DNA of 32,784 bases from assembly GCA_018064365.1 (NCBI GenBank), contig JAGHVJ010000029.1, forward strand, positions 1 through 32,784, given 5' to 3'. Below, piece by piece: positions 5,156 through 31,917 of the stretch (positions within the stretch are counted from its first letter, which is position 1; each line of letters starts with the position of its first letter). This DNA comes from Candidatus Enterousia onthequi (GTDB taxonomy: Bacteria; Pseudomonadota; Alphaproteobacteria; Rs-D84). A program made the translations under genes and the position numbers. The notes under the pieces are model-generated. The model was given only the letters and a program-made list of their open reading frames with translations. It was not told the DNA's origin and did no database searches.

Positions 5156-5171
5156 TTATAAACTTAAAAAC

Positions 5172-5200
5172 TTGCAATTTCCAGCACAAAGATTTATAAT
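5172..5200 (+). promoter_or_regulatory. ssrA promoter
   Basis: A -35 box TTGCAA (5172-5177) is followed after 17 bases by a consensus -10 TATAAT (5195-5200). This is the strongest sigma-70-type match in the window, as expected for an abundant stable RNA. Transcription should begin near 5207. A divergent TATAAT at 5155-5160 probably serves obgE. Confidence 0.8.
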
Positions 5201-5206
5201 ACTTGC

Positions 5207-5535
5207 GCCGCATCGCGGTGATGATTCTGAACACTATGCAGAATAGTCGTTTTGGACTGGGGGGCGGTACCCCACAGCTCCACCAATTATTATAAAGTTC
5301 TTTTATGGGGCTGACATAGTTTCGACAGACGCAGTAAAAGCAATAGATTGAATCCGACATGGTCGTCGTAAAACACTAAATAAAAACTGAATGGCGATAG
5401 AATCGCTGCGAACGACAATGTTCGCCTTGCAATGGCTGCTTAATAAAAGCGTTTGATATAATTGGCAATTGTTGATTATATCTATTTAGTTATTGCGGGG
5501 TTCGTCGGGTACCTGGCACCAGAAACCCGGCACTT
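5207..5535 (+). ncRNA. ssrA: Circularly permuted (two-piece) tmRNA
   Basis: Transfer-messenger RNA rescues stalled ribosomes. The gene is permuted as in alphaproteobacteria. The acceptor piece comes first and ends CAGCTCCACCA at 5275-5285, with CCA encoded. A 21-base spacer follows. The coding piece then begins GGGGCTG at 5307, which pairs perfectly with CAGCTCC to rebuild the seven-base acceptor stem. A T-arm is visible as TGGGG, loop GGCGGTA, CCCCA at 5258-5274. The tag frame from GCG 5408 reads ANDNVRLAMAA with double stops at 5441-5446; a GCT just before could add one Ala. Downstream bases to about 5535 contain the pseudoknot-like CGGGT/ACCCG pairing. Exact mature ends are inferred. Confidence 0.95.
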
Positions 5536-5900: not shown

Positions 5901-7664
5901 ATGAAAAATTATATACTACCACTTCGCGATATTGTTGTCCATCCAGGACTGACTATGCCTATTTATCTGGACAATCCGACATCGGTCGATTGTTTAAAAA
6001 CGGCATCTAATTTTGGCAACCAAATTATTTTAGTGCCACAACGGTCTTGGGCATACCCATCGAATCCAGATGACATTTATGAAACCGGCACAATCGGGAA
6101 TATTGTTCAAATATTAAATTTACCGGACGGTTCTGTTCACTCTATTGTTCGCACAACCGATGCTGTCCGCATATCAGACGTTCAAATGGTTGACGGTTTG
6201 TTTGTTGGAAATTCTGAAAAAATTGAAATTACAGACGATATGGAATCCGAACAAACATTGGCATTGCGCGATAAAATTATTGAAAACTTACGCACATTAC
6301 CAACAATCAAAAAAATCAAAGTTGATAAATTATACAATGTTGTTCGCAATTATCCCCTGCCCGCATTTATTGACAGTATAATTCAAACATTGAACATTGA
6401 TACAGATACCGCATTAAAAATTTTGACAGCCACAACATGGCGCGAAAAATTGATTATTTTATTAGAACAGGTCAATTTGAACGCAGAAACTGCAAAAATT
6501 GAAGAATCTATCAACAATCGGGTTCATCAACAAATGGAAAACGGCCGTCGCGACGCAATTTTACAAGAAAAACTCCGTGCAATTCAACACGAAATGGGCG
6601 ACGACGATGATGAAATGGCAGATACCAATAATATACGCAAAAAAATCGAAAATTCTGCCATGCCAAATGATGTAATGGACAAGGCAAAATCCGAATGGAA
6701 ACGTATGCGCGCAATGTCGCCAATGTCCCAAGAAGGCGGACTGATTAAAAATTACCTGGACGAATTATTATCTATGCCATGGGGACGTTTTCACCAACAA
6801 CCAATCGATTTGAAATGCGCACGCGAAACATTGGATTCCGAACATTCTGGTATGCAACCCGTCAAAGAACGCATTTTGGAACACATCGCGGTTATGAAAA
6901 AAACAGGCACACCACGCGGGTCTATCTTGTGTTTTGTCGGGGCACCTGGTGTTGGCAAAACATCATTATGCAAATCTATTGCAACCGCATTGGGGCGTAA
7001 ATATCAACGGATTTCGTTGGGTGGCATTTCTGATGAATCACATTTTCGCGGCCATCGCAAAACATACATTGGGGCACAAACAGGACGCATTATGGACGCA
7101 TTAAAAAGATGCAAAACCAATAATCCTGTAATCGTTCTGGATGAAATCGACAAAATGGGACGCGATTGGCGTGGCGACCCAGAATCTGCATTACTGGAAA
7201 TTTTGGACCCAGAACAAAATAAATCTTTCCGTGACCATTACCTAGAGGTTGACTTTGACCTGTCGAACGTTTTGTTTATTGCGACGGCAAATTCGTTAAA
7301 TATGTCTTCCGCATTAAAAGACCGTATGGAAATCATAAACGTTCCTGGATATACCGAAGAAGACAAGGTTCAAATTGCCCGTGAACATCTATTAAAACGC
7401 GTGGCCGATGAAAATGGTTGGGATGTGAACAATATTGTAATATCAGACGATGCAATTCGTCATGTTATTCGCAATTATACATCCGAACAAGGTGTTCGCG
7501 GTCTGCAACGCGAATTGGCAACATTATTACGGCGCCAACTGTTGGCAAATGATGGAATGGATACAAAAACAGATTTCACAATTGAAAAAATTGATGATTT
7601 GCTATCCATCCGCAACAACGCCGACACATCTCATAAAATCGGTTTTGGTATGCGCGCACAGTAA
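5901..7664 (+). CDS. Lon-type AAA+ protein lacking the protease domain
   Basis: The protein is colinear with Lon protease through its first 587 residues and then stops. The N-terminal substrate-binding domain starts with YILPLRDIVVHPG. A coiled-coil region precedes the AAA+ module, which has Walker A GAPGVGKT at 347-354, Walker B with DE at 414-415, a sensor segment ANSLN, the arginine-finger LKDRM and the alpha domain with TSEQGVRGLQRELA. Canonical Lon has about 780-820 residues with a C-terminal Ser-Lys protease domain; here the frame ends at the ATPase-protease border. No protease-domain peptide is visible in any frame downstream, where another gene begins two bases later. All ATPase motifs look intact, so it may be an active unfoldase without proteolysis. 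No Shine-Dalgarno is present. Confidence 0.9.
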   Translation: MKNYILPLRDIVVHPGLTMPIYLDNPTSVDCLKTASNFGNQIILVPQRSWAYPSNPDDIYETGTIGNIVQILNLPDGSVHSIVRTTDAVRISDVQMVDGLFVGNSEKIEITDDMESEQTLALRDKIIENLRTLPTIKKIKVDKLYNVVRNYPLPAFIDSIIQTLNIDTDTALKILTATTWREKLIILLEQVNLNAETAKIEESINNRVHQQMENGRRDAILQEKLRAIQHEMGDDDDEMADTNNIRKKIENSAMPNDVMDKAKSEWKRMRAMSPMSQEGGLIKNYLDELLSMPWGRFHQQPIDLKCARETLDSEHSGMQPVKERILEHIAVMKKTGTPRGSILCFVGAPGVGKTSLCKSIATALGRKYQRISLGGISDESHFRGHRKTYIGAQTGRIMDALKRCKTNNPVIVLDEIDKMGRDWRGDPESALLEILDPEQNKSFRDHYLEVDFDLSNVLFIATANSLNMSSALKDRMEIINVPGYTEEDKVQIAREHLLKRVADENGWDVNNIVISDDAIRHVIRNYTSEQGVRGLQRELATLLRRQLLANDGMDTKTDFTIEKIDDLLSIRNNADTSHKIGFGMRAQ

Positions 7665-7666
7665 AA

Positions 7667-8008
7667 ATGAATATATTTTTCGAAATCATAGAATACACGA
7701 AAAATTGTAAAAACTTGATTTGCCAAATACACAAATACGGCAACAATTTACAATTTGAAAGTTGGTTTTATTCTGATACAATTAAAATAAACGATAGGTT
7801 TACACTGCGAACCCCTGATATATACTTTGTGGTTATACAGTATGAAACTATATTGGTTGGCGAAACGCATTATCGATTTGAACTACACAATGAATCATGG
7901 GTTATGCGTTATCCAAAACACAGAAAATTATTCGATATTTTATTTGCACCGACTATTTTCAAAATCTGTGCAAAAAAATATAACAAACAAAGGACTAAAC
8001 AAAAATGA
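7667..8008 (+). CDS. Unknown protein between lon and tsaB
   Basis: This is a 113-residue protein that I do not recognise. It is rich in aromatic residues (about 20 Phe, Tyr and Trp), ends in a very basic tail, and has no clear signal peptide or membrane span. It starts two bases after the Lon stop, and its TGA stop overlaps the tsaB start (ATGA), so translation is probably coupled on both sides. That places it in the lon-tsaB-acetyltransferase operon. It does not resemble the missing Lon protease domain. Confidence 0.65.
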   Translation: MNIFFEIIEYTKNCKNLICQIHKYGNNLQFESWFYSDTIKINDRFTLRTPDIYFVVIQYETILVGETHYRFELHNESWVMRYPKHRKLFDILFAPTIFKICAKKYNKQRTKQK

Positions 8009-17274: not shown

Positions 17275-19797
17275 TTACATTGGTATATCTTCACATCTCT
17301 CAACAGGATCAGATTCTTGACAACTCATCTCATCCTTCGCACCTATGCCTAAAAAACCTTTTTTACTAACCGAAGTACAACTCTTTGTAACTGTAGATGT
17401 ACAATAATGACAATTTCTTGTTTCTCGATTAAATAAAGACCACATCTCACGCGTGCCTCCTGGCAACTCCACTTTTACTTTATTACTACCCAAACCAGTA
17501 AAAGAATTAACGACTTCTGCAAACTTAGACGCACCTGCTGTCTTATCCATAACCGCTGTTCCAAAATTACTACTACCTTTACCGCCATTGACTAAATCCA
17601 TATTATTCAAACCTGCACCGACATCGTAACTTATAGCATATGGGGCAGTCAAAGGAGTATCTGCCGTTGTCAAACCTGTCGCCGATCCCCCATCTGTCAC
17701 TGGCATCATCTGACACAAATATTGTGCAATATCCGCAGACGCTTCTTTTGCTGCATCCGCCACAGCCTTATTAAACTTCTTATTATAATTATCTTGAGCC
17801 TGACGTAATGCCGCAACCGCTATTTGCATTCTAACCTGATTCAACAAATTCGGGAAACGCGCAGATGTTTTTTCTTTCTTACCCGTAATTTGTTCCAAAT
17901 TGCGTCCAGAAATACAATATTGAATCTTGGTATCCTGTTCAATCATTTCTGTCACACGATTGATTGTTCCCGCAATATTATTTAACTCCGCCTCTATTGA
18001 CGACAATATAGTCTTTGCATTCTTTAGTCCACCAGATTTCTCCGTGGCATTAGCCATATAGTCTTCAATACCCAATTCTCCAGGTTTCAAAACTCTATCA
18101 CCATCCTTGACAGAACCACTGGCATCACCAAATTTGATAGAACCAAACGAAATCATACCTGTTACACGATAAATATTTCCAACCTTTTGCGACTGCAGAG
18201 AACCCGTTCCCATCGTATCATCTGCTGCAAATTTGTTACAATCGGTGGTTGAACCACATATTTCCACCATTTTTTCATCAACTAAATTCTGACAATTATC
18301 CAATGCTGCATTATCAATATTCAGATACAATCCCATCAACATAGAATCCAAATCATCCATTGAAAAGTTTGGATTAGCTTGTTTACATACAACCAGTTTA
18401 TCAATTGGACAAATATCATGAATATACGCATAATCCATACCCACACACTTCGAAAAATCCTCACCACAACGTGTATCATCGGTAAAGCAATCTTTAACTT
18501 CGGCCGTACAAGCATCAACACGCATAGCCGCCAACTTGTCTTTCACATAATCCCAAATTTGTGGTTCCATACGTTCACACGGATCAATTTCAACCTTGCA
18601 GAAACTGCGTGCCATATCCGGACGTGCCAAACATGCATCCATCGTTTCCACACCTTTGCCCTCGATATCGTCTTTACATGCTTTTTGAATACAATTTGAA
18701 ATATCAGTCAAACAAGATTGACGTTTTTTTGACTCGATTTTACTCTCAGCTAACTTGATTGTCGGTGCTGCTTCACGCAAAAAATCATTCCATACATTAT
18801 CCCGAACAGCCATACATTGATCTAAAACACGTTCACAAATATAACGTTTAGATTCCAATATTTCCATCGTAGACTCTGTAATATTATACGTATTTACAGT
18901 CTGTACTTTTGTTTTCGCCGTACTGACCGCTTTATTATTTTGCATATTTTCACTGGCAATAGTAAAGACACAATTTTCCCAATCTTTACCACATGCGTCT
19001 GGCCCTTGCATACATTTTTTATATTCAACCATACATTCGCCACGATCATATTTATTCGCAGCATCCAAAGACTCTTTTAATGCATCTCGCACAGCGGCAT
19101 TTGCTAAATTCATTTCATTTTTAGCCTCGGCCTCTTTCTTTTCCAAACTATTCGCAAAACCTTTACAATCAGACACTATCTGCCGAGAATACATTTGCTT
19201 TAACAATTTAACATCTTTACCACACGCATCCATATCCATCTGTGATTGACATAATTCGTCAGCAGCCTTATATAACTCATCACCTGTTTTATCTGAAACA
19301 CCATCAATTGCCTCTTCAAACGCGTCCTCATCTTCATCAGACAAATCGTCCCATAATGATAACAAAGCCTGCTTTTTGTCTTTCTGCCCCGATACAGCCA
19401 CATCGCCAGTTTTTTTGTCATATTCGCGTTTTCCATTAAAAATAATGTCCGCATTAGCACCTGCTTGAACACGCTCAACCTCTTCCGTTTTTATGCGTTC
19501 TGCTTCTACCAAAGTATCTTTTATCTTTTCTAAACGTTTTGCATAATCAATACTTAAATCACTACACGCACAAGAACCACCATCTTCATTATCCAAAATA
19601 CAAAACTGATCCATACAACCATAATAAGCCTCATAACATTCTTGGGAATACAAACCTGCTGCATCCGTTTTCGCACGTACTTTGGTTCCTTGCTGAATTG
19701 CAGACTGCTTAGCCGCAGTTTTCGTTGCAGAATATGCCGGCACAACAACCGACAATAATGCTATAAACAACCCACAATTTATCAATCTCGTTTTCAT
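17275..19797 (-). CDS. Large secreted cysteine-rich protein A
   Basis: I do not recognise a known family for this 840-residue protein. A signal peptide (MKTRLINCGLFIALLSVVVPAYSA) precedes a mature part with about 36 cysteines. The signature C-x3-Y-x2-C-M-D-x-F-C plus a CAC pair lies at 54-78. Further shared elements, in order, are SRQIVSDCK, the GEC...CG-x-DWENC block, VLDQCMAVRDNVW, CLTDISNC, CGEDFSKC and near the end NCHYC then CEDIPM. Most of the rest looks helical and acidic. It is a clear paralogue of the gene upstream at 19819-21978. ATG 19797 is preceded by GGAGAGAG. It is probably exported and heavily disulfide-bonded. mscS follows in the same operon. Confidence 0.85.
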   Translation of the reverse strand: MKTRLINCGLFIALLSVVVPAYSATKTAAKQSAIQQGTKVRAKTDAAGLYSQECYEAYYGCMDQFCILDNEDGGSCACSDLSIDYAKRLEKIKDTLVEAERIKTEEVERVQAGANADIIFNGKREYDKKTGDVAVSGQKDKKQALLSLWDDLSDEDEDAFEEAIDGVSDKTGDELYKAADELCQSQMDMDACGKDVKLLKQMYSRQIVSDCKGFANSLEKKEAEAKNEMNLANAAVRDALKESLDAANKYDRGECMVEYKKCMQGPDACGKDWENCVFTIASENMQNNKAVSTAKTKVQTVNTYNITESTMEILESKRYICERVLDQCMAVRDNVWNDFLREAAPTIKLAESKIESKKRQSCLTDISNCIQKACKDDIEGKGVETMDACLARPDMARSFCKVEIDPCERMEPQIWDYVKDKLAAMRVDACTAEVKDCFTDDTRCGEDFSKCVGMDYAYIHDICPIDKLVVCKQANPNFSMDDLDSMLMGLYLNIDNAALDNCQNLVDEKMVEICGSTTDCNKFAADDTMGTGSLQSQKVGNIYRVTGMISFGSIKFGDASGSVKDGDRVLKPGELGIEDYMANATEKSGGLKNAKTILSSIEAELNNIAGTINRVTEMIEQDTKIQYCISGRNLEQITGKKEKTSARFPNLLNQVRMQIAVAALRQAQDNYNKKFNKAVADAAKEASADIAQYLCQMMPVTDGGSATGLTTADTPLTAPYAISYDVGAGLNNMDLVNGGKGSSNFGTAVMDKTAGASKFAEVVNSFTGLGSNKVKVELPGGTREMWSLFNRETRNCHYCTSTVTKSCTSVSKKGFLGIGAKDEMSCQESDPVERCEDIPM

Positions 19798-19818
19798 CTC
19801 TCTCTCCATAGATAAAAA

Positions 19819-21978
19819 TTATTTTAACTCTTTTAACATATCTTCTGTAATATCACCAACATTAATATCTTCACAAGATTCTAATTCCTGACAAAATTCT
19901 TCTTTACCCCCAGACATCGCCCCCATAACACCGGCACCGACTGCACCAATCACACCACCAATGGCCGTCCCCCAACCAGCAGACACCATTGTTCCTGCCG
20001 ATGCTCCAGCCGACAAACCACCGGCCGCCGCTTTCAGTGCAGAAGTAGCCTTATCTTCACCACCAACTTCGCATACACGTTGAACACGACACACATGGCA
20101 ATTGCGTAAATCCGGTTCATACGCAACACTACGGATATAAGTATACGATCCGTCCTCATCCGGTTTCTGTTCTTCTTTATATTTTTTCAAACAATATTTA
20201 TGATTACGATTAGTTTCTTCTTTGGCTTTCAATTCATCCATAATCGAAGACAATTCACGCAACGCACGATTTTTCGCCTCACGGTATGCAACCATCTTTG
20301 CCGATGTATTCACACCATCAATCATACTGGTTCGATTTTTCAGTTTTGTTTTACTTTTACCATAAACATCTTGACACGCAGACAAAGTTAAATCTTTTTC
20401 AAAATCCGCAAAGAACGCATCAACCGCAGCACGCGACGTTTCGTCAACTTTGTTCACCAAAGAATTCACATCCACCCATTTTGTCGTATCAACACCAGAC
20501 AACAATTCTGCCGCCGGAATACAAGCCATATCAGCCCCACAAACATTAGTCAATTTTTCTGCAAATTGATTGATACACCCCGTCAACAACTGGTAATCCA
20601 TATGCAACATAGCCGAACTAACCAATACATCATACTGCAGTGCCCCTTTGCACGATGGGAACATACTCTGCGGACACAATGACACAATCTCAGACACCTG
20701 CTTACCAACACACTCTGGCTTTGTAAAATCAACTCCACACTTGTCTTTCAAACAAGAATCCAAATCATTTTCACAAAACTTTGTTTGCAAATATGCTAAC
20801 TTATCATTTATAACAGTCTGCAACCCTGGAATCTTTTCGTTACACTCTGTAATAATCGGACAAATACCAGCCGCCACATTAACATCAGTCAAACACGCAG
20901 ACTCCGTTGATGTCGAACAGCCTTCTTCCAAACAATCTTGAATTTTTGCCAAACACATCGCACGACTATTTTTATCAGCATACTTTTCCGCTTCTTTCAA
21001 AATAGCAACAGATTCTTCCTTCCAATCCTTTAAAACATTTTCACGATCATACATACACTGATCCAACACATCTTCGCACGCATTTGCACGACGCGACAAC
21101 AACCCTGCATCCAAACAGTTTTCAAAATTCACACCACAACCACCTTTATCCGCGATACAAGAGCGATACGCCAACAAACATTCACCACGATTATATTTGT
21201 GTGTTGTATCCAACATTTCCAAACGAGCAGCACGAACAGCAGCCTCAGCCGTTTTTTTATTCATTTCCGCATCACGTTTTTGGTCAGACAAATACGATTC
21301 AAAAGATTTACAATCTGCAACAATTTGACGACTATACAAAGTTTCTTCCATCGCTGATTTAGAACCACATTTTTTCAATTCATCCGCACACGCTGTCGCC
21401 GCCATAGAATACAAGTTTTGACCAATATCCATATCTTCGCCCAACTCGCCCTCATCATCTGCGCCATCACTTAACCATGCAGAAAAATCCAACCCAGATT
21501 TTAACGAACTTTTTTTAGCAGCATCCGAACTACCAAACACTAATTTTGCCTTGGCACCCAATTTTTCACGTTCAACCCCAGTTGTATACAATTCATCTGC
21601 CTCGTTTTGTATCTTTTGAATTTCTTGAATCAACTTTTTTGAACGTTCTATATTATCCGAGCAAGCACAACGAGAGCCCTCGGTTTCATCCAACAAGCAA
21701 AATTCATCCATACAAGCACGATACGCATCACGACAATTTTCCGGAGTTTCAGAGCTCGCCTTTTCCTCTTCCGACACATCACCATCCTCATCGCCCCCGC
21801 GTTGCTCGATAACAGGACTCGATTTTGTCGTACTCGCCTTTACACCAGTTGTCACCTTTCCAGCAGACGCCCCTACCGGTTTCATCCCTATACGTGCATT
21901 AGAACCCGTCCCACGCCCAGCAGCAAACGCGACCAAAGGTACTAAACAAAAAATCAACGCAATATTTCTGATTTTCAT
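19819..21978 (-). CDS. Large secreted cysteine-rich protein B with glycine zipper
   Basis: This 719-residue paralogue of A has a signal peptide (MKIRNIALIFCLVPLVAFAA), a Gly/Ser/Thr/Glu-rich linker, and the signature CRDAYRACMDEFC with CAC at 82-106. It then has SRQIVADCK, the GEC...CGVNFENC block, VLDQCMYDRENV, CLAKIQDC, CGVDFTKPEC, NCHVC and CED. I count about 36 mature cysteines, nearly colinear with A. Near the C-terminus, at about 640-690, an Ala/Gly-rich stretch (GWGTAIGGVIGAVGAGVMG) looks like a glycine-zipper membrane segment and interrupts the last cysteine module; A lacks it. GGAGAGAG precedes ATG 21978. It is the first gene of the operon. Confidence 0.85.
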   Translation of the reverse strand: MKIRNIALIFCLVPLVAFAAGRGTGSNARIGMKPVGASAGKVTTGVKASTTKSSPVIEQRGGDEDGDVSEEEKASSETPENCRDAYRACMDEFCLLDETEGSRCACSDNIERSKKLIQEIQKIQNEADELYTTGVEREKLGAKAKLVFGSSDAAKKSSLKSGLDFSAWLSDGADDEGELGEDMDIGQNLYSMAATACADELKKCGSKSAMEETLYSRQIVADCKSFESYLSDQKRDAEMNKKTAEAAVRAARLEMLDTTHKYNRGECLLAYRSCIADKGGCGVNFENCLDAGLLSRRANACEDVLDQCMYDRENVLKDWKEESVAILKEAEKYADKNSRAMCLAKIQDCLEEGCSTSTESACLTDVNVAAGICPIITECNEKIPGLQTVINDKLAYLQTKFCENDLDSCLKDKCGVDFTKPECVGKQVSEIVSLCPQSMFPSCKGALQYDVLVSSAMLHMDYQLLTGCINQFAEKLTNVCGADMACIPAAELLSGVDTTKWVDVNSLVNKVDETSRAAVDAFFADFEKDLTLSACQDVYGKSKTKLKNRTSMIDGVNTSAKMVAYREAKNRALRELSSIMDELKAKEETNRNHKYCLKKYKEEQKPDEDGSYTYIRSVAYEPDLRNCHVCRVQRVCEVGGEDKATSALKAAAGGLSAGASAGTMVSAGWGTAIGGVIGAVGAGVMGAMSGGKEEFCQELESCEDINVGDITEDMLKELK

Positions 21979-21990
21979 ATCTCTCTCCAC

Positions 21991-22380: not shown

Positions 22381-22407
22381 AAAATGCACCACTTGGTGCA
22401 TTTTTTT
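22381..22407 (+). terminator. infA terminator
   Basis: The stem TGCACC/GGTGCA (22385-22390 with 22395-22400, loop ACTT), with flanking A and T runs, is followed by seven T residues. Confidence 0.88.
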
Positions 22408-22446
22408 ATTGCCCAACCAACAAAATTTTTGATAACATTTTTATGT

Positions 22447-24576
22447 ATGAGGAAGAAAGTTTTTCTATTTTTATCTCTATCATTAATGGCTGCAATTGGC
22501 ATATGCCATGCGGCGGATCGTTCTATATCCGAAAACCCGACAAAAACAATGCGCGGCACCATGGCTGCGACATCAAATAACGCACGCGCGACAACATCTA
22601 TCCGTTCGCCAAAACAACAAAATATCAAACAACGCACAACAAACACCAACACACGTGACCGAGGTGCAACCCAACAAACAAAATCACGAACAGCCACACG
22701 TACAATCACATCAACTCGTTCGGGACTGTTCTATACACCAACAAAATCCAGAACGATTATTTCACGTGCTGCAACAAACGCCATAATTCCAGAAACAAAT
22801 TTTAGTACAGATTATAACACATGCCGCGACGCATATTTTACATGCATGGACCAATTTTGCGCAACAATGCACGACACATATCGTCGTTGTATTTGTTCAT
22901 CACGACTTTCCGAAATACAACAAAAACAATCCACAATTTCCGAGGCATCTGATTCTTTGACCGCATTTCATGATTTAAACTTAAATGTTATAAACAAAAC
23001 CGCTGCCGAAGTATCTGCAATGACAACCGCAACTATCGGCGAACAAATGATAAACACAGCAACCGACAATTCGGCTTCAACCCAACAGTTAAATGCCATC
23101 AGCAGCGTATTGTCTAAAACCAAAAGCAAATCTTTATCCACCGCCGGCACCTTGGATGCAGGTGGCAATATTCAATCAATTTGGGCAACCACAGATTTAG
23201 CAAATGGCGCCAATATCGCAAACCTTACTGGTGAACCACTGTATAATGCTGTAAACGCACAATGTTCTGAAATGGTAAATACACAATGTCCTTCATCTAT
23301 ATTAAACATGGTAATATCTGCATACGGTATGTACATAGAAAACGATTGTTCAGCACTGGCAACAACTTTGACCAAACAAAAAAATTCCACAAATTCCGCA
23401 ATTCGCGAAACTGGGCGCGAATTAAATGTTGCACGACTGGAAAATTATGATGCACACAATTCATTATCCATCAACGAATGTATCAACAGTATCAGAAATG
23501 ATTTAACCGCAGACACGGCATGCGGCCCCGATTTTGTCCACTGTTTAGATGTGACAGGATTGTATTTGAACATCGACACCGGTGAACCATTATACACAAA
23601 AAACTTCTATAATTTGGCAAATCAAATTTCATTAGAAGGAAATATTTTAAACAACCAAACCAACCATATGTTTGTAAACACACTAAACAATAAAAAAATT
23701 TATGCAGAAACATCACTGGATAAATGTCGTGATGTATCCGGTGATGTTTGGGACGAATTTATGCGTCAAGCAATAATCGAAATTCATCAAAAACAACAAG
23801 AAAAAATCAGAACCGTAAAAAATGAATGCTTGGGCATTGTTAACCAATGCTATGACGAACAAACAAATTCATTGAAAGATTTCAGCAACATTTCTGATAA
23901 AACATTATTAGGAATGACAATGGAAACCGTCGAAGATTTATGTCGTGAAAAATTAGACACATGCAGCAACCTATACGGTGGCGGTCCATCAGGGCTGACT
24001 GAATTGGTGAACGCAATGCACGACATTGTTGACCAACGAATACTTGCAGAATGTCAAAATTTACTAACCGATTTCGGGAAAAACTTATGTTCTGTTCAAT
24101 CCAGTGATACATTGCATGCATACCCATACGCATGTCGTGTTTACACACCCGGGGACCAAAAATATGCTGCAATTCCAAAATGCAATGCCGCAACAGCAAA
24201 TTCTACAGATTGCGGTGACGATTATATCAACAGTTTGTATCAACGTTTTGTTCATTACGCAATGCAGGTTTGCATCCGACCGTCTGAATATGAAAACTAT
24301 GCAACAACAGAAAATGGGGTGGCACAATTAACAATTCCAACTGCGGTATTACAAGACATAAATATCGTTATGGACAAAATGCGCATTGATATGAGTAACG
24401 AATTATCAATCGAGTGTGAACGCCTGGGGGGCATATGGGTCACCACGCCATACATCGATACATCTATCGCATTACAGGAACAATTTTATACAGAAACAGG
24501 TACAAATAAAAACTGGGGATATTGTCGCGCCCCAAACACAACCCTTGATACAGACATAGAACCGACTTCAGAATAA
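22447..24576 (+). CDS. Large secreted cysteine-rich protein C
   Basis: This is a third, more diverged member of the same family as A and B, 709 residues long and on the opposite strand. It has a signal peptide (MRKKVFLFLSLSLMAAIGICHA), then about 100 residues rich in Thr, Ser, Arg and Gln, then the signature CRDAYFTCMDQFC with CIC at 126-150. Later blocks recognisable from A and B are the NDC region, CGPDFVHC, CRDVSGDVW-EFM, CLGIVNQC and CREKLDTC. About 24 mature cysteines remain, and the NCHxC module at the C-terminus of A and B is missing. I chose ATG 22447 so that the protein begins with its signal peptide; an earlier in-frame start lies inside the infA terminator. Function unknown. Confidence 0.8.
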   Translation: MRKKVFLFLSLSLMAAIGICHAADRSISENPTKTMRGTMAATSNNARATTSIRSPKQQNIKQRTTNTNTRDRGATQQTKSRTATRTITSTRSGLFYTPTKSRTIISRAATNAIIPETNFSTDYNTCRDAYFTCMDQFCATMHDTYRRCICSSRLSEIQQKQSTISEASDSLTAFHDLNLNVINKTAAEVSAMTTATIGEQMINTATDNSASTQQLNAISSVLSKTKSKSLSTAGTLDAGGNIQSIWATTDLANGANIANLTGEPLYNAVNAQCSEMVNTQCPSSILNMVISAYGMYIENDCSALATTLTKQKNSTNSAIRETGRELNVARLENYDAHNSLSINECINSIRNDLTADTACGPDFVHCLDVTGLYLNIDTGEPLYTKNFYNLANQISLEGNILNNQTNHMFVNTLNNKKIYAETSLDKCRDVSGDVWDEFMRQAIIEIHQKQQEKIRTVKNECLGIVNQCYDEQTNSLKDFSNISDKTLLGMTMETVEDLCREKLDTCSNLYGGGPSGLTELVNAMHDIVDQRILAECQNLLTDFGKNLCSVQSSDTLHAYPYACRVYTPGDQKYAAIPKCNAATANSTDCGDDYINSLYQRFVHYAMQVCIRPSEYENYATTENGVAQLTIPTAVLQDINIVMDKMRIDMSNELSIECERLGGIWVTTPYIDTSIALQEQFYTETGTNKNWGYCRAPNTTLDTDIEPTSE

Positions 24577-24636: not shown

Positions 24637-25902
24637 TTAAGCGACTTTTTTTGATTCCGCAAAAATTTCCACATATGGCTTTTTGCCCAACACAACATCT
24701 TTGTCTATTACAATTTCCTGTAATCCATCTTTTTCTGGGGCATCAAACATTGGTTGCAACAATAATTTTTCCAAAATACTACGCAACCCACGTGCACCAG
24801 TTTTGCGTTGCACCGCCATATGCGCAACCTCTTGCAAACCATCTGGTGTAACAGTCAGTTTTACACCATCAATTCCCAACATCGCGACATACTGTTTTAC
24901 AATAGCATTTTTAGGCTCAGTCAAAATCTTAACTAATGCATTTTCATCCAATTCTTGCAAAGTTGTAATAATCGGTAAACGGCCAACCAATTCAGGAATA
25001 ATACCAAATTTCACCAAATCTTCTGGTTGTACATCTGACAAATTACTCGCATCCACGCGTTCTTGTTTAGATTTAACATCAGCACCAAAGCCAATACCCG
25101 CACGAACACTTTTGCGCGCACCAATAATTTTATTCAACCCATCAAATGCACCTCCACAGATAAATAAAATTTTCGATGTATCTAATTGCACAGTAGCCTC
25201 GCCAGGATGCTTGCGGCCTGCGCCACCAACCGGCACATTTGCAACAGTTCCTTCGACCAATTTTAATAACGCCTGCTGCACACCTTCACCAGACACATCA
25301 CGTGTCAAAGACGGATTTTCAGATTTGCGTGCAATTTTATCAATTTCATCGATATAAATAATTCCACGCCCAGCCTTTTCTACATCGAAATTCGCATTTT
25401 GCAACAAACGTGCCAAAACACTTTCTACATCGTCACCGACATATCCAGCCTCGGTCAAAGTAGTTGCATCTGCAATTGCAAACGGCACATCCAAAATACG
25501 CGCCAATGTTTGTGCAAACAAAGTTTTACCCGTTCCAGTTGAACCAATCAACAATACATTTGACTTTTGAATTTCAACATCAGAAACAGAAACCGTATGA
25601 CGTTTATAATGATTATATACCGCCACAGACAACGCACGTTTTGCATCATCTTGACCGATAATATATTCATTCAAGAAATCATAAATTTGATGTGGAGTTG
25701 GCAATTTTGTTGTGCCATTTTTAACCGCATCTCGTTGTAAATCATCAGCCATAATATCATTGCACAATGCGATACATTCATCGCAAATGCAAACATTACG
25801 ACCACTGACCAACTTTTTTACTTCATACACTGCCTTACCACAGAAAGAACAAAACTGGTCATTTTTTTTATTTTCTGTCGAAGTTATTTTTTCGTCACTC
25901 AT
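24637..25902 (-). CDS. clpX: ClpX, unfoldase of the ClpXP protease
   Basis: This 421-residue AAA+ unfoldase feeds substrates, including tmRNA-tagged proteins, into ClpP. The N-terminal zinc domain uses CSFC at 18-21 and CDEC at 40-43. The ATPase has Walker A GSTGTGKT at 120-127, the pore loop GYVGDDVE, Walker B with IDEIDK, the RKH loop (GRKHPGE) and the sensor-2 segment [14 protein letters not shown] 25902 is preceded by GAGG. An in-frame TTG five codons upstream gives a non-canonical N-terminus. It follows clpP by 25 bases, the usual clpP-clpX order. Confidence 0.97.
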
Positions 25903-25927
25903 ATCCAAAAGCCTCAAAATTCAAATA

Positions 25928-26509
25928 TTATTTACGCACCAAAATTCCATCAATCAAGCCAAAATCTTTCGCATCATTCGCAGTCATCCAATTATCACGT
26001 TCCATTGCTGTGAATAATTCTTTTTCTTTACGACCTGTAAATTCAGACATTTGTTTAATCAACAATTCTTTGGTCTGCTTAAACTTACTGATTTGAATTT
26101 CCATATCGGTCACCTGGCCCTGGGTTCCAGCCATTGGTTGATGAATCATAATAGATGTATTTGGCAAAACAAATCTTTTGCCCTTTTCACCCGCCGCCAA
26201 CAACACAGACGCCATCGACGCAACCAATCCCATGCCAATTGTAGAAACAGGTGCCTTGATATAACGCATCGTATCCAAAATAGCCTCGCCCGCAGAAACA
26301 TCACCACCAGGGCTGTTGATATACATTGAAATATCTGCATTTGGATTTTCAGATTCCAACAACAACAACTGGGCAACAATAACATTTGCCATATTTGTTT
26401 CGATTTCACCGGTCACCATAATAATTCTATCACGCAACAAACGTGAATAAATATCAAAAGAACGCTCACCACGTGGCGATTCTTCTATAACCATAGGTAT
26501 CAAAGCCAT
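25928..26509 (-). CDS. clpP: ClpP protease subunit
   Basis: This self-compartmentalised serine protease has 193 residues. The catalytic triad is Ser98 (in VASMAS), His123 (MIHQP) and Asp173 (MERDNW). The N-terminal [22 protein letters not shown] and the tail GLIDGI match the family. It is the proteolytic partner of the downstream clpX gene. Because the Lon protein in this window has no protease domain, ClpXP is the only complete ATP-dependent protease visible here. AAGGG lies before the start. Confidence 0.97.
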
Positions 26510-30816: not shown

Positions 30817-31917
30817 ATGGAAAAATATCTAAACAAGATTTTATCTGGTGATTGCATAGAATTAATGCGCAAAATGCCAGATGCATCTGTGGACGCGATT
30901 TTTGCAGATTCTCCTTATAATTTACAACTGGGCGAAAAAACTTTATACCGCCCCGAAGACCAAACCGCCGCCCGCGCAGTTCGTGACGCATGGGACGCAT
31001 TTGAATCCCCAGAACAATATAATCAATTTTGTCGTGATTGGTTACGCGAATGTAAAAGAATATTAAAACCAACCGGCGCAATGTGGGCGATTGGGTCTTA
31101 CCACAACATTTTTCAAATTGGCGCAATTATGCAAGACCTGGGTTTTTGGATTTTGAATGACATCGTATGGGTCAAAACAAATCCTATGCCGAATTTCCGT
31201 GGCACGCGTTTTACGAACGCACATGAAACATTGATTTGGGCAACACCTACCAAAACAGGTAAATACACATTTAATTATGAAACAATGAAGAAATTAAACG
31301 GCGGCAAACAAATGCGTTCTGATTGGGGACTGGACATCTGTTTGGGACACGAACGCATCAAAGGTGCCGACGGTAAAAGTCTGCACAACACACAAAAACC
31401 ATTGGATTTATTGCGCCGCGTCATATTGGCATCGACAAAACCAGGAGACATAATTTTAGATCCTTTTTTAGGCAGTGGCACAACCGCCGCCGCCGCCAAA
31501 GAATTGGGGCGTCAGTTTATCGGTATTGACCGTGATGAAACATACGTTGCCGCCGCACGCGAACGCGTTGCAAATGTGCAACCAATTGATTTATCAGACA
31601 TCGAAGTAACAAAACCAAAACGCGATGAAATCCGTGTTGCATTCCGTGAACTTATCGATGCAGGATTATTATATGTCGGCCAAACATTGGTCAGTCCACG
31701 CGGCGAACGCGTTATGATAACACACGACGGACAATTAGCACACACACTGTATGGCAAGGCATCCATCCACGTCATGGCTGCGCGCATCCAACACAGTGTC
31801 AGTTTTAATGGCTGGGATTATTGGTCTGCCCAAAAACGCGATGGCACATTGGTTCCAATCGACGATTTGCGTAAATATATTCGCGATGTAAAATCCGGCA
31901 TTAAAAAAGCCGCATAA
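30817..31917 (+). CDS. ccrM: CcrM-type GANTC adenine DNA methyltransferase
   Basis: This cell-cycle methyltransferase methylates adenine in GANTC and is characteristic of alphaproteobacteria. It is a beta-class enzyme. The catalytic motif comes first (ADSPYNLQL, DSPY at 31-34), followed by GSYHNIFQIG, DIVWVKTNPMPNF, NAHETLIWA, then the AdoMet motif DPFLGSGTT and the CcrM-specific C-terminal domain with FRELIDAGLLYVGQTL and NGWDYW. The length of 366 residues matches Caulobacter CcrM at about 358. The catalytic motif has Ser in place of the usual first Pro (DSPY for DPPY). GAGGACGAGAG precedes the ATG. There is no restriction enzyme gene next to it. Confidence 0.95.
   Translation: MEKYLNKILSGDCIELMRKMPDASVDAIFADSPYNLQLGEKTLYRPEDQTAARAVRDAWDAFESPEQYNQFCRDWLRECKRILKPTGAMWAIGSYHNIFQIGAIMQDLGFWILNDIVWVKTNPMPNFRGTRFTNAHETLIWATPTKTGKYTFNYETMKKLNGGKQMRSDWGLDICLGHERIKGADGKSLHNTQKPLDLLRRVILASTKPGDIILDPFLGSGTTAAAAKELGRQFIGIDRDETYVAAARERVANVQPIDLSDIEVTKPKRDEIRVAFRELIDAGLLYVGQTLVSPRGERVMITHDGQLAHTLYGKASIHVMAARIQHSVSFNGWDYWSAQKRDGTLVPIDDLRKYIRDVKSGIKKAA

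Follow-up and report, generated by a model that had tools for sequence, protein, structure and literature searches.

A Lon without a protease domain and with an invariant Ile-Gly-Phe tail beside an ordinary permuted tmRNA gene in Candidatus Enterousia

The window, a 32,784-nt stretch of a contig of Candidatus Enterousia onthequi that was analysed at its full length, carries a tmRNA gene of the ordinary permuted type and, downstream of it, a gene for a Lon that has no protease domain. The Lon is the unusual part of this region; the first-pass annotation had given it as context only and without mention of the Ile-Gly-Phe (IGF) tripeptide in its C-terminal tail. We lean slightly towards a reading in which, across most of the family, Lon has turned into a Clp-type ATPase, the peptidase having been lost once and the remaining stub converted into a ClpP-docking IGF tail, which would make a natural LonA-ClpP two-component protease beside the tmRNA gene. 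Candidatus Enterousia belongs to the order Rs-D84 and comes from animal guts, its genomes not exceeding about 1 Mb (PMC12306168, in part); that paper names the genus without using the words Lon, protease, tmRNA or ssrA, and no paper on a protease-less Lon in the group, or on Lon docking on ClpP, was found in the open-access literature. The protein-coding features that matter here are as follows.

5901-7664, forward strand: protease-less Lon (587 aa; N domain, AAA+ and lid), with matches to PF02190, PF00004 and PF22667 and none to Lon_C
7638-7646, forward strand: codons of Ile580-Gly581-Phe582 in the C-terminal tail of the truncated Lon, a tripeptide present in 86/86 distinct truncated Lons
24637-25917, reverse strand: ClpX, with a zinc finger and its own IGF loop AGIGFGADV (profile matches and alignment)
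25087-25095, reverse strand: codons of the ClpX IGF tripeptide, residues 275-277 (aligned with the solved ClpX chain of 8e91)
25928-26509, reverse strand: ClpP (PF00574, 252 bits; NF001368, 280 bits)

That the Lon had lost its protease domain was borne out, with no Lon_C in the protein at 5901-7664 and no Lon_C or Ser-Lys protease domain in the 35 genus genomes searched; against TIGR00763 the protein scored 552 bits, below the family cut-off of 608. A protease domain encoded elsewhere in the genome was ruled out by the lack of any Lon_C match, and the next open reading frame (7667-8008), considered as a protease remnant, had no NCBIfam match. With LonA (TIGR00763, endopeptidase La) the protein has the N domain, AAA+ module and lid in common, residues 5-548 aligning to positions 2-562 of 795 and the fold alignment with the model of the truncated Lon extending to residues 570-576; it differs in the missing protease domain and in the new IGF tail. 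As far as its sequence tells, the Lon downstream of the tmRNA cannot cleave proteins, because the protease domain was apparently lost once in the ancestor of most of the family.

Truncated Lon was found in 58 of the 59 genus genomes, with frames mostly of 586-625 aa, a few of them partial at contig edges and one of 726 aa (L414) whose protein ends in the usual tail. Within an order sample of 142 genomes, truncated Lon frames of about 590-640 aa occurred in nine of the ten genera of the family, and genus g193 of the same family, sister to the truncated group, has Lons of 769-779 aa with the GPSAG motif. Lon_C matched strongly in 17 of 18 order genomes from outside the genus, with only a weak match in the remaining genome (G048). 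Apart from two genus members, the matches listed for 144 class genomes yielded no further confirmed case of a truncated Lon. Two candidates were rejected, a short Lon frame (G069) that runs off the contig end into the protease domain and a short second Lon copy (G179) that has GPSAG. A further genome (G150) has a 312-aa Lon frame at a contig edge.

A maximum-likelihood tree of 37 Lons, built from the ATPase parts only with the tail and protease domain left out, placed the 24 truncated sequences on one side of a single branch (100/99), next to g193. The simplest history would be one old loss of the protease domain, after g193 had split off. Among nine close Lons (36 pairs) the median dN/dS was 0.069 and the maximum 0.107, with dS ranging from 0.49 to 2.4, which makes the larger distances approximate only. 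All 30 aligned genus Lons retain intact Walker A and Walker B motifs, sensor 1, Arg finger, pore Tyr and sensor 2. The Lon ATPase is evidently kept by selection and the remnant is, on this evidence, not decaying. Gene loss does occur in reduced genomes, and the window comes from a draft assembly of 37 contigs, both of which might point to pseudogene decay or misassembly; against this, 86 distinct truncated Lons, drawn from nine genera, all stop at the identical end point and have no internal stops, dN/dS is about 0.07 and there is one origin, by which the idea is refuted for practical purposes and its probability reduced to almost nothing.

The tail of the truncated Lon is short and, apart from three residues, variable. 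In each of the 86 distinct truncated Lons (72 from the genus and 14 from eight other genera, with identities down to about 51%), IGF is found in the final 14 aa with Lys or Arg directly before it, and the residues after it vary in both sequence and length (4-9). Beyond L568 the sole invariant residues are I580-G581-F582, and their codons are freely exchanged (Ile: ATC 33, ATT 35, ATA 18; Gly: all four; Phe: TTT 57, TTC 29). At position +6 from the tail Ile, where ClpX has Val, 82 of the 86 have A, I, L, V or M. Full-length Lons (n = 13) read [VI]-G-[VITAL] at the matching junction, never with Phe, so the first-strand stub of the lost domain may have been the raw material of the motif, to which Phe would have been added before all three residues were fixed.

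Taking 27 genes of the window, [LIVM]G[FL] in the last 14 aa was found once, namely in Lon, and IGF at any position in Lon and ClpX only. A scan of genome contigs for the pattern ANDNxxxAMAA found at least 114 stretches, 109 of which read as tmRNA (five had no readable tag); a Lon ATPase frame accompanied 54 of the 114 loci, with a stop and IGF in 48, the remaining six frames having no stop and running off the stretch or the contig. The AlphaFold monomer model of Lon is mediocre (mean pLDDT 72.3, pTM 0.46, shallow alignment), with pLDDT under 50 for tail residues 572-587. Solved Lon chains reaching the C-terminal end, among the matches listed, align to model residues 570-576 at most (581-588 in the bacterial chains). 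Because of that alignment limit and the low pLDDT, the tail is taken to start about where the protease domain was joined and is probably flexible, the predicted disorder carrying little weight since the model is mediocre.

ClpX docks on ClpP by an IGF loop, with Ile268, Phe270 and Val274 of the E. coli protein packing into ClpP clefts, and the substitutions I268L, F270L and V274A cause severe ClpP-binding defects (PMC7112951, in part). ClpX of the source genome reads IGFGADV at the aligned place. The truncated Lon carries a docking-type tripeptide, [hydrophobic]-Gly-[Phe/Leu], in a C-terminal tail and not in an internal loop. With ClpX and other IGF/IGL partners of ClpP it has in common IGF, a hydrophobic residue at +6 and an AAA+ unfoldase with a pore Tyr, and its motif sits where the peptidase should be, as it does in those partners; whereas ClpX carries the motif on a loop inside the large AAA+ domain, here it is at the Lon C-terminus, and the motor is a Lon with a Lon N domain. 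We consider it rather probable that the Lon ring docks on ClpP, feeds it substrates and so constitutes a second ClpP-dependent protease. By this mechanism, after an ancestor of most of the family had lost the Lon protease domain and kept the ATPase motor, the tail IGF and the hydrophobic residue at +6 would insert into the ClpP surface clefts in the manner of ClpX, and the docked ring, presumably a hexamer, would hand substrates on to ClpP.

The main rival is a chaperone or DNA role without ClpP, the truncated Lon being a pure ATP-dependent chaperone or DNA-binding factor whose IGF tail packs on its own lid or on a neighbouring subunit and caps an exposed surface. Strong selection on the ATPase would suit such a role, the anti-aggregation activity of human LONP1 needs ATP hydrolysis and not protease activity (PMC8368198, in part), and [VI]-G corresponds to what full-length Lons have in the first strand of their protease domain. 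Inactive Lons with chaperone-like activity, whether mutant or mitochondrial, also have a Lon ATPase that works without cleavage, but there the protease domain is present and inactive, whereas here it is naturally gone in most of the family. A packing residue, however, should drift among Ile, Val and Leu, while Ile and Phe are fixed in 86 proteins in which the neighbours and the tail length vary, and the tail is predicted at very low confidence. Since neither Val nor Leu is tolerated in place of Ile, the pattern fits ClpP docking better than generic packing, and the rival is judged unlikely, if a serious contender.

Several considerations count against docking on ClpP: a C-terminal IGF tail is not among the docking modes described in the literature consulted, [VI]-G may simply be a leftover of the lost domain's first strand, and assembly of the Lon hexamer may depend on the protease ring. 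On the side of the receptor, E. coli ClpP touches the IGF backbone through Arg192, and ClpX no longer binds when this residue is changed (R192K; PMC7112951, in part). The source-genome ClpP ends in ILVRK, and the residue matching Arg192 may be Lys, as in the best-matching aligned ClpP; a Lys at this position is uninformative for Lon versus ClpX. It is also conceivable, but improbable, that the tail docks on ClpP mainly to regulate it, by opening or blocking the pore or by competing with ClpX, with no delivery of substrates. The same clefts are bound by acyldepsipeptides, which open ClpP (PMC7112951, in part), and the motif is complete, as such regulation would have it, but mere occupancy would not need the pore Tyr and all the ATPase motifs, which are kept in 30/30.

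The gene upstream, from which the analysis set out, is a known family member, and its parts, all on the forward strand, are given below.

5168-5534, forward strand: permuted two-piece alphaproteobacterial tmRNA gene (RF01849, RF04321)
5223-5285, forward strand: acceptor piece with CCA end (cmscan and stem reading)
5258-5262 and 5270-5274, forward strand: T-stem strands, within the acceptor piece
5263-5269, forward strand: T-loop GGCGGTA, within the acceptor piece
5275-5281, forward strand: acceptor 3' strand CAGCTCC, within the acceptor piece
5286-5306, forward strand: 21-nt spacer separating the two pieces (measured length), with excision expected from the family
5307-5313, forward strand: acceptor 5' strand GGGGCTG, which opens the coding piece and holds the G of the G3-U pair (7/7 pairs)
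5408-5443, forward strand: tag reading frame ANDNVRLAMAA-stop (GCG..TAA), from both covariance models

The permuted tmRNA proposed in the first-pass annotation was matched by RF01849 at 5168-5534 on the forward strand (166.3 bits, E 1.9e-46, gathering score 50) and by RF04321 at 5223-5443 (125.8 bits), both with cmscan, and the RF01849 match is the only one in the whole 885-kb genome. The covariance-model search thus fitted the permuted model, and an alternative tag frame was ruled out, RF01849 and RF04321 setting the identical frame at 5408-5443, as first read. ARAGORN reported no tmRNA in the window despite the two strong Rfam matches, a miss that was not counted against the gene because the covariance models are decisive. 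The acceptor stem formed between the two pieces, described as perfectly complementary, does pair at 7/7 positions, but only with the G-U wobble at pair 3 counted. A G3-U pair in the acceptor stem is an identity element for Ala. It is kept in 33 of the 34 order stems that were readable (a set in which some unpaired positions are probably misread 5' strands), and at pairs 5, 6 and 7 changes on both sides were seen among Rs-D84 relatives. The T-loop GGCGGTA, noted as lacking the usual TTC, is present as read, but it is not odd: it is the RF01849 consensus and the norm of the class (GGCGGTA in 57 and GGCAGTA in 49 of 119 readable alphaproteobacterial tmRNAs), and therefore no defect. The gene is an ordinary permuted tmRNA of the alphaproteobacterial type, having in common with the Caulobacter-type permuted tmRNA (RF01849) the acceptor piece in first place, G3-U, the CCA end, an ANDN... 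tag with an Ala-Ala end and the T-loop GGCGGTA; the sole difference is the Met preceding the last Ala-Ala, which is common to the order Rs-D84.

The tag ANDNVRLAMAA starts with Ala and ends in Ala-Ala before the stop. It had been called short, which did not hold, since 11 aa is a normal length: tags of the class run from 9 to 15 aa (119 readable tmRNAs), with 10 aa the commonest tmRNA tag length in a 2025 database paper (PMC11915505, in part). The Met in place of the usual Leu or Val is real, but its supposed oddness falls away once tags are compared across relatives, the MAA end being stable over the order. Tag ends of the order Rs-D84 (44 loci taken of 48 order matches, four without a readable tag left out; n = 40) were MAA in 36, LAA in three and IAA in one, compared with LAA in 75, VAA in 24, AAA in eight, IAA in six and MAA in six for the class (134 loci, 15 without a readable tag left out; n = 119). 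Outside Rs-D84, AMAA tags were seen in Sphingorhabdus (L074), a Sphingomonas bin (L147) and Pacificimonas (L148), among the matches listed. Given 36/40 in the order and matches outside it, AMAA is a stable habit of the clade that is also found elsewhere; no paper linking AMAA with ssrA was found in the open-access literature.

The machinery expected to read such a tag is present. ClpXP, said to be encoded nearby, lies in the window at 24637-26509. The genome has an SmpB gene (G000:C3:4800-5228) with a 157-aa frame and a full basic C-terminal tail. Among 59 relatives, SmpB was detected in 56 and SspB in 53, with the source genome counted in both cases; for FtsH the figure was 57 of 59. The HslV-type Proteasome profile had no match in 52 of 53 order Rs-D84 genomes, the sole match being weak and partial (G015), and Clp_N had none in the 53. 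In several genus genomes (G004, G006, G010, G011, G034, G267, G268 and others) there are AAA+ frames about 690-750 aa long that share 28-33% identity with the AAA module of Lon; these may encode a ClpA whose N domain has diverged beyond the reach of Clp_N, so that a conventional second partner for ClpP may exist.

For ClpX, the essential part of a tag is its last two Ala (PMC12383707, in part), which ANDNVRLAMAA has, for which the expected reader is ClpXP with SspB. We are highly confident that this is a standard permuted tmRNA acting in the standard way. Its precursor is predicted to be cut into two pieces and charged with Ala, the tmRNA and SmpB would add ANDNVRLAMAA to stalled proteins, and ClpXP, probably aided by SspB, would degrade these, the Met leaving in place the C-terminal Ala-Ala required by ClpX. 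MAA ends are uncommon outside the order (6/119), which might indicate that AMAA is poorly read by ClpX and that tagged proteins survive or go to another reader; the terminal Ala called essential, the stability of MAA over the order, its recurrence in Sphingomonadales and the retention of SspB make this very improbable.

In 23 of the 32 genus genomes in which the tmRNA gene and lon could both be placed, the two share a strand and the tmRNA gene precedes lon by a few hundred bases. Elsewhere in the window, three long open reading frames (17275-19809, 19819-21990 and 22384-24576; 844, 723 and 730 aa) had no Pfam or NCBIfam match, and a DNA methylase at 30817-31917 has N6_N4_Mtase and RAMA domains, an architecture that we take to be that of CcrM.

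The tmRNA itself adds only a tag typical of its clade. If the reading of Lon as a ClpP-docking motor is true, evolution can split a fused ATPase-protease and re-plug the motor into an unrelated peptidase ring, a change of which we know of no other natural case. The minimal rules of ClpP docking would then be directly testable with natural variants, since the 86 proteins record which tail lengths and flanking residues are permitted. The region would further illustrate how bacteria with a genome of about 1 Mb bring their cytosolic proteolysis together on a single peptidase, in an order where an HslV-type match is missing from 52 of the 53 genomes searched.
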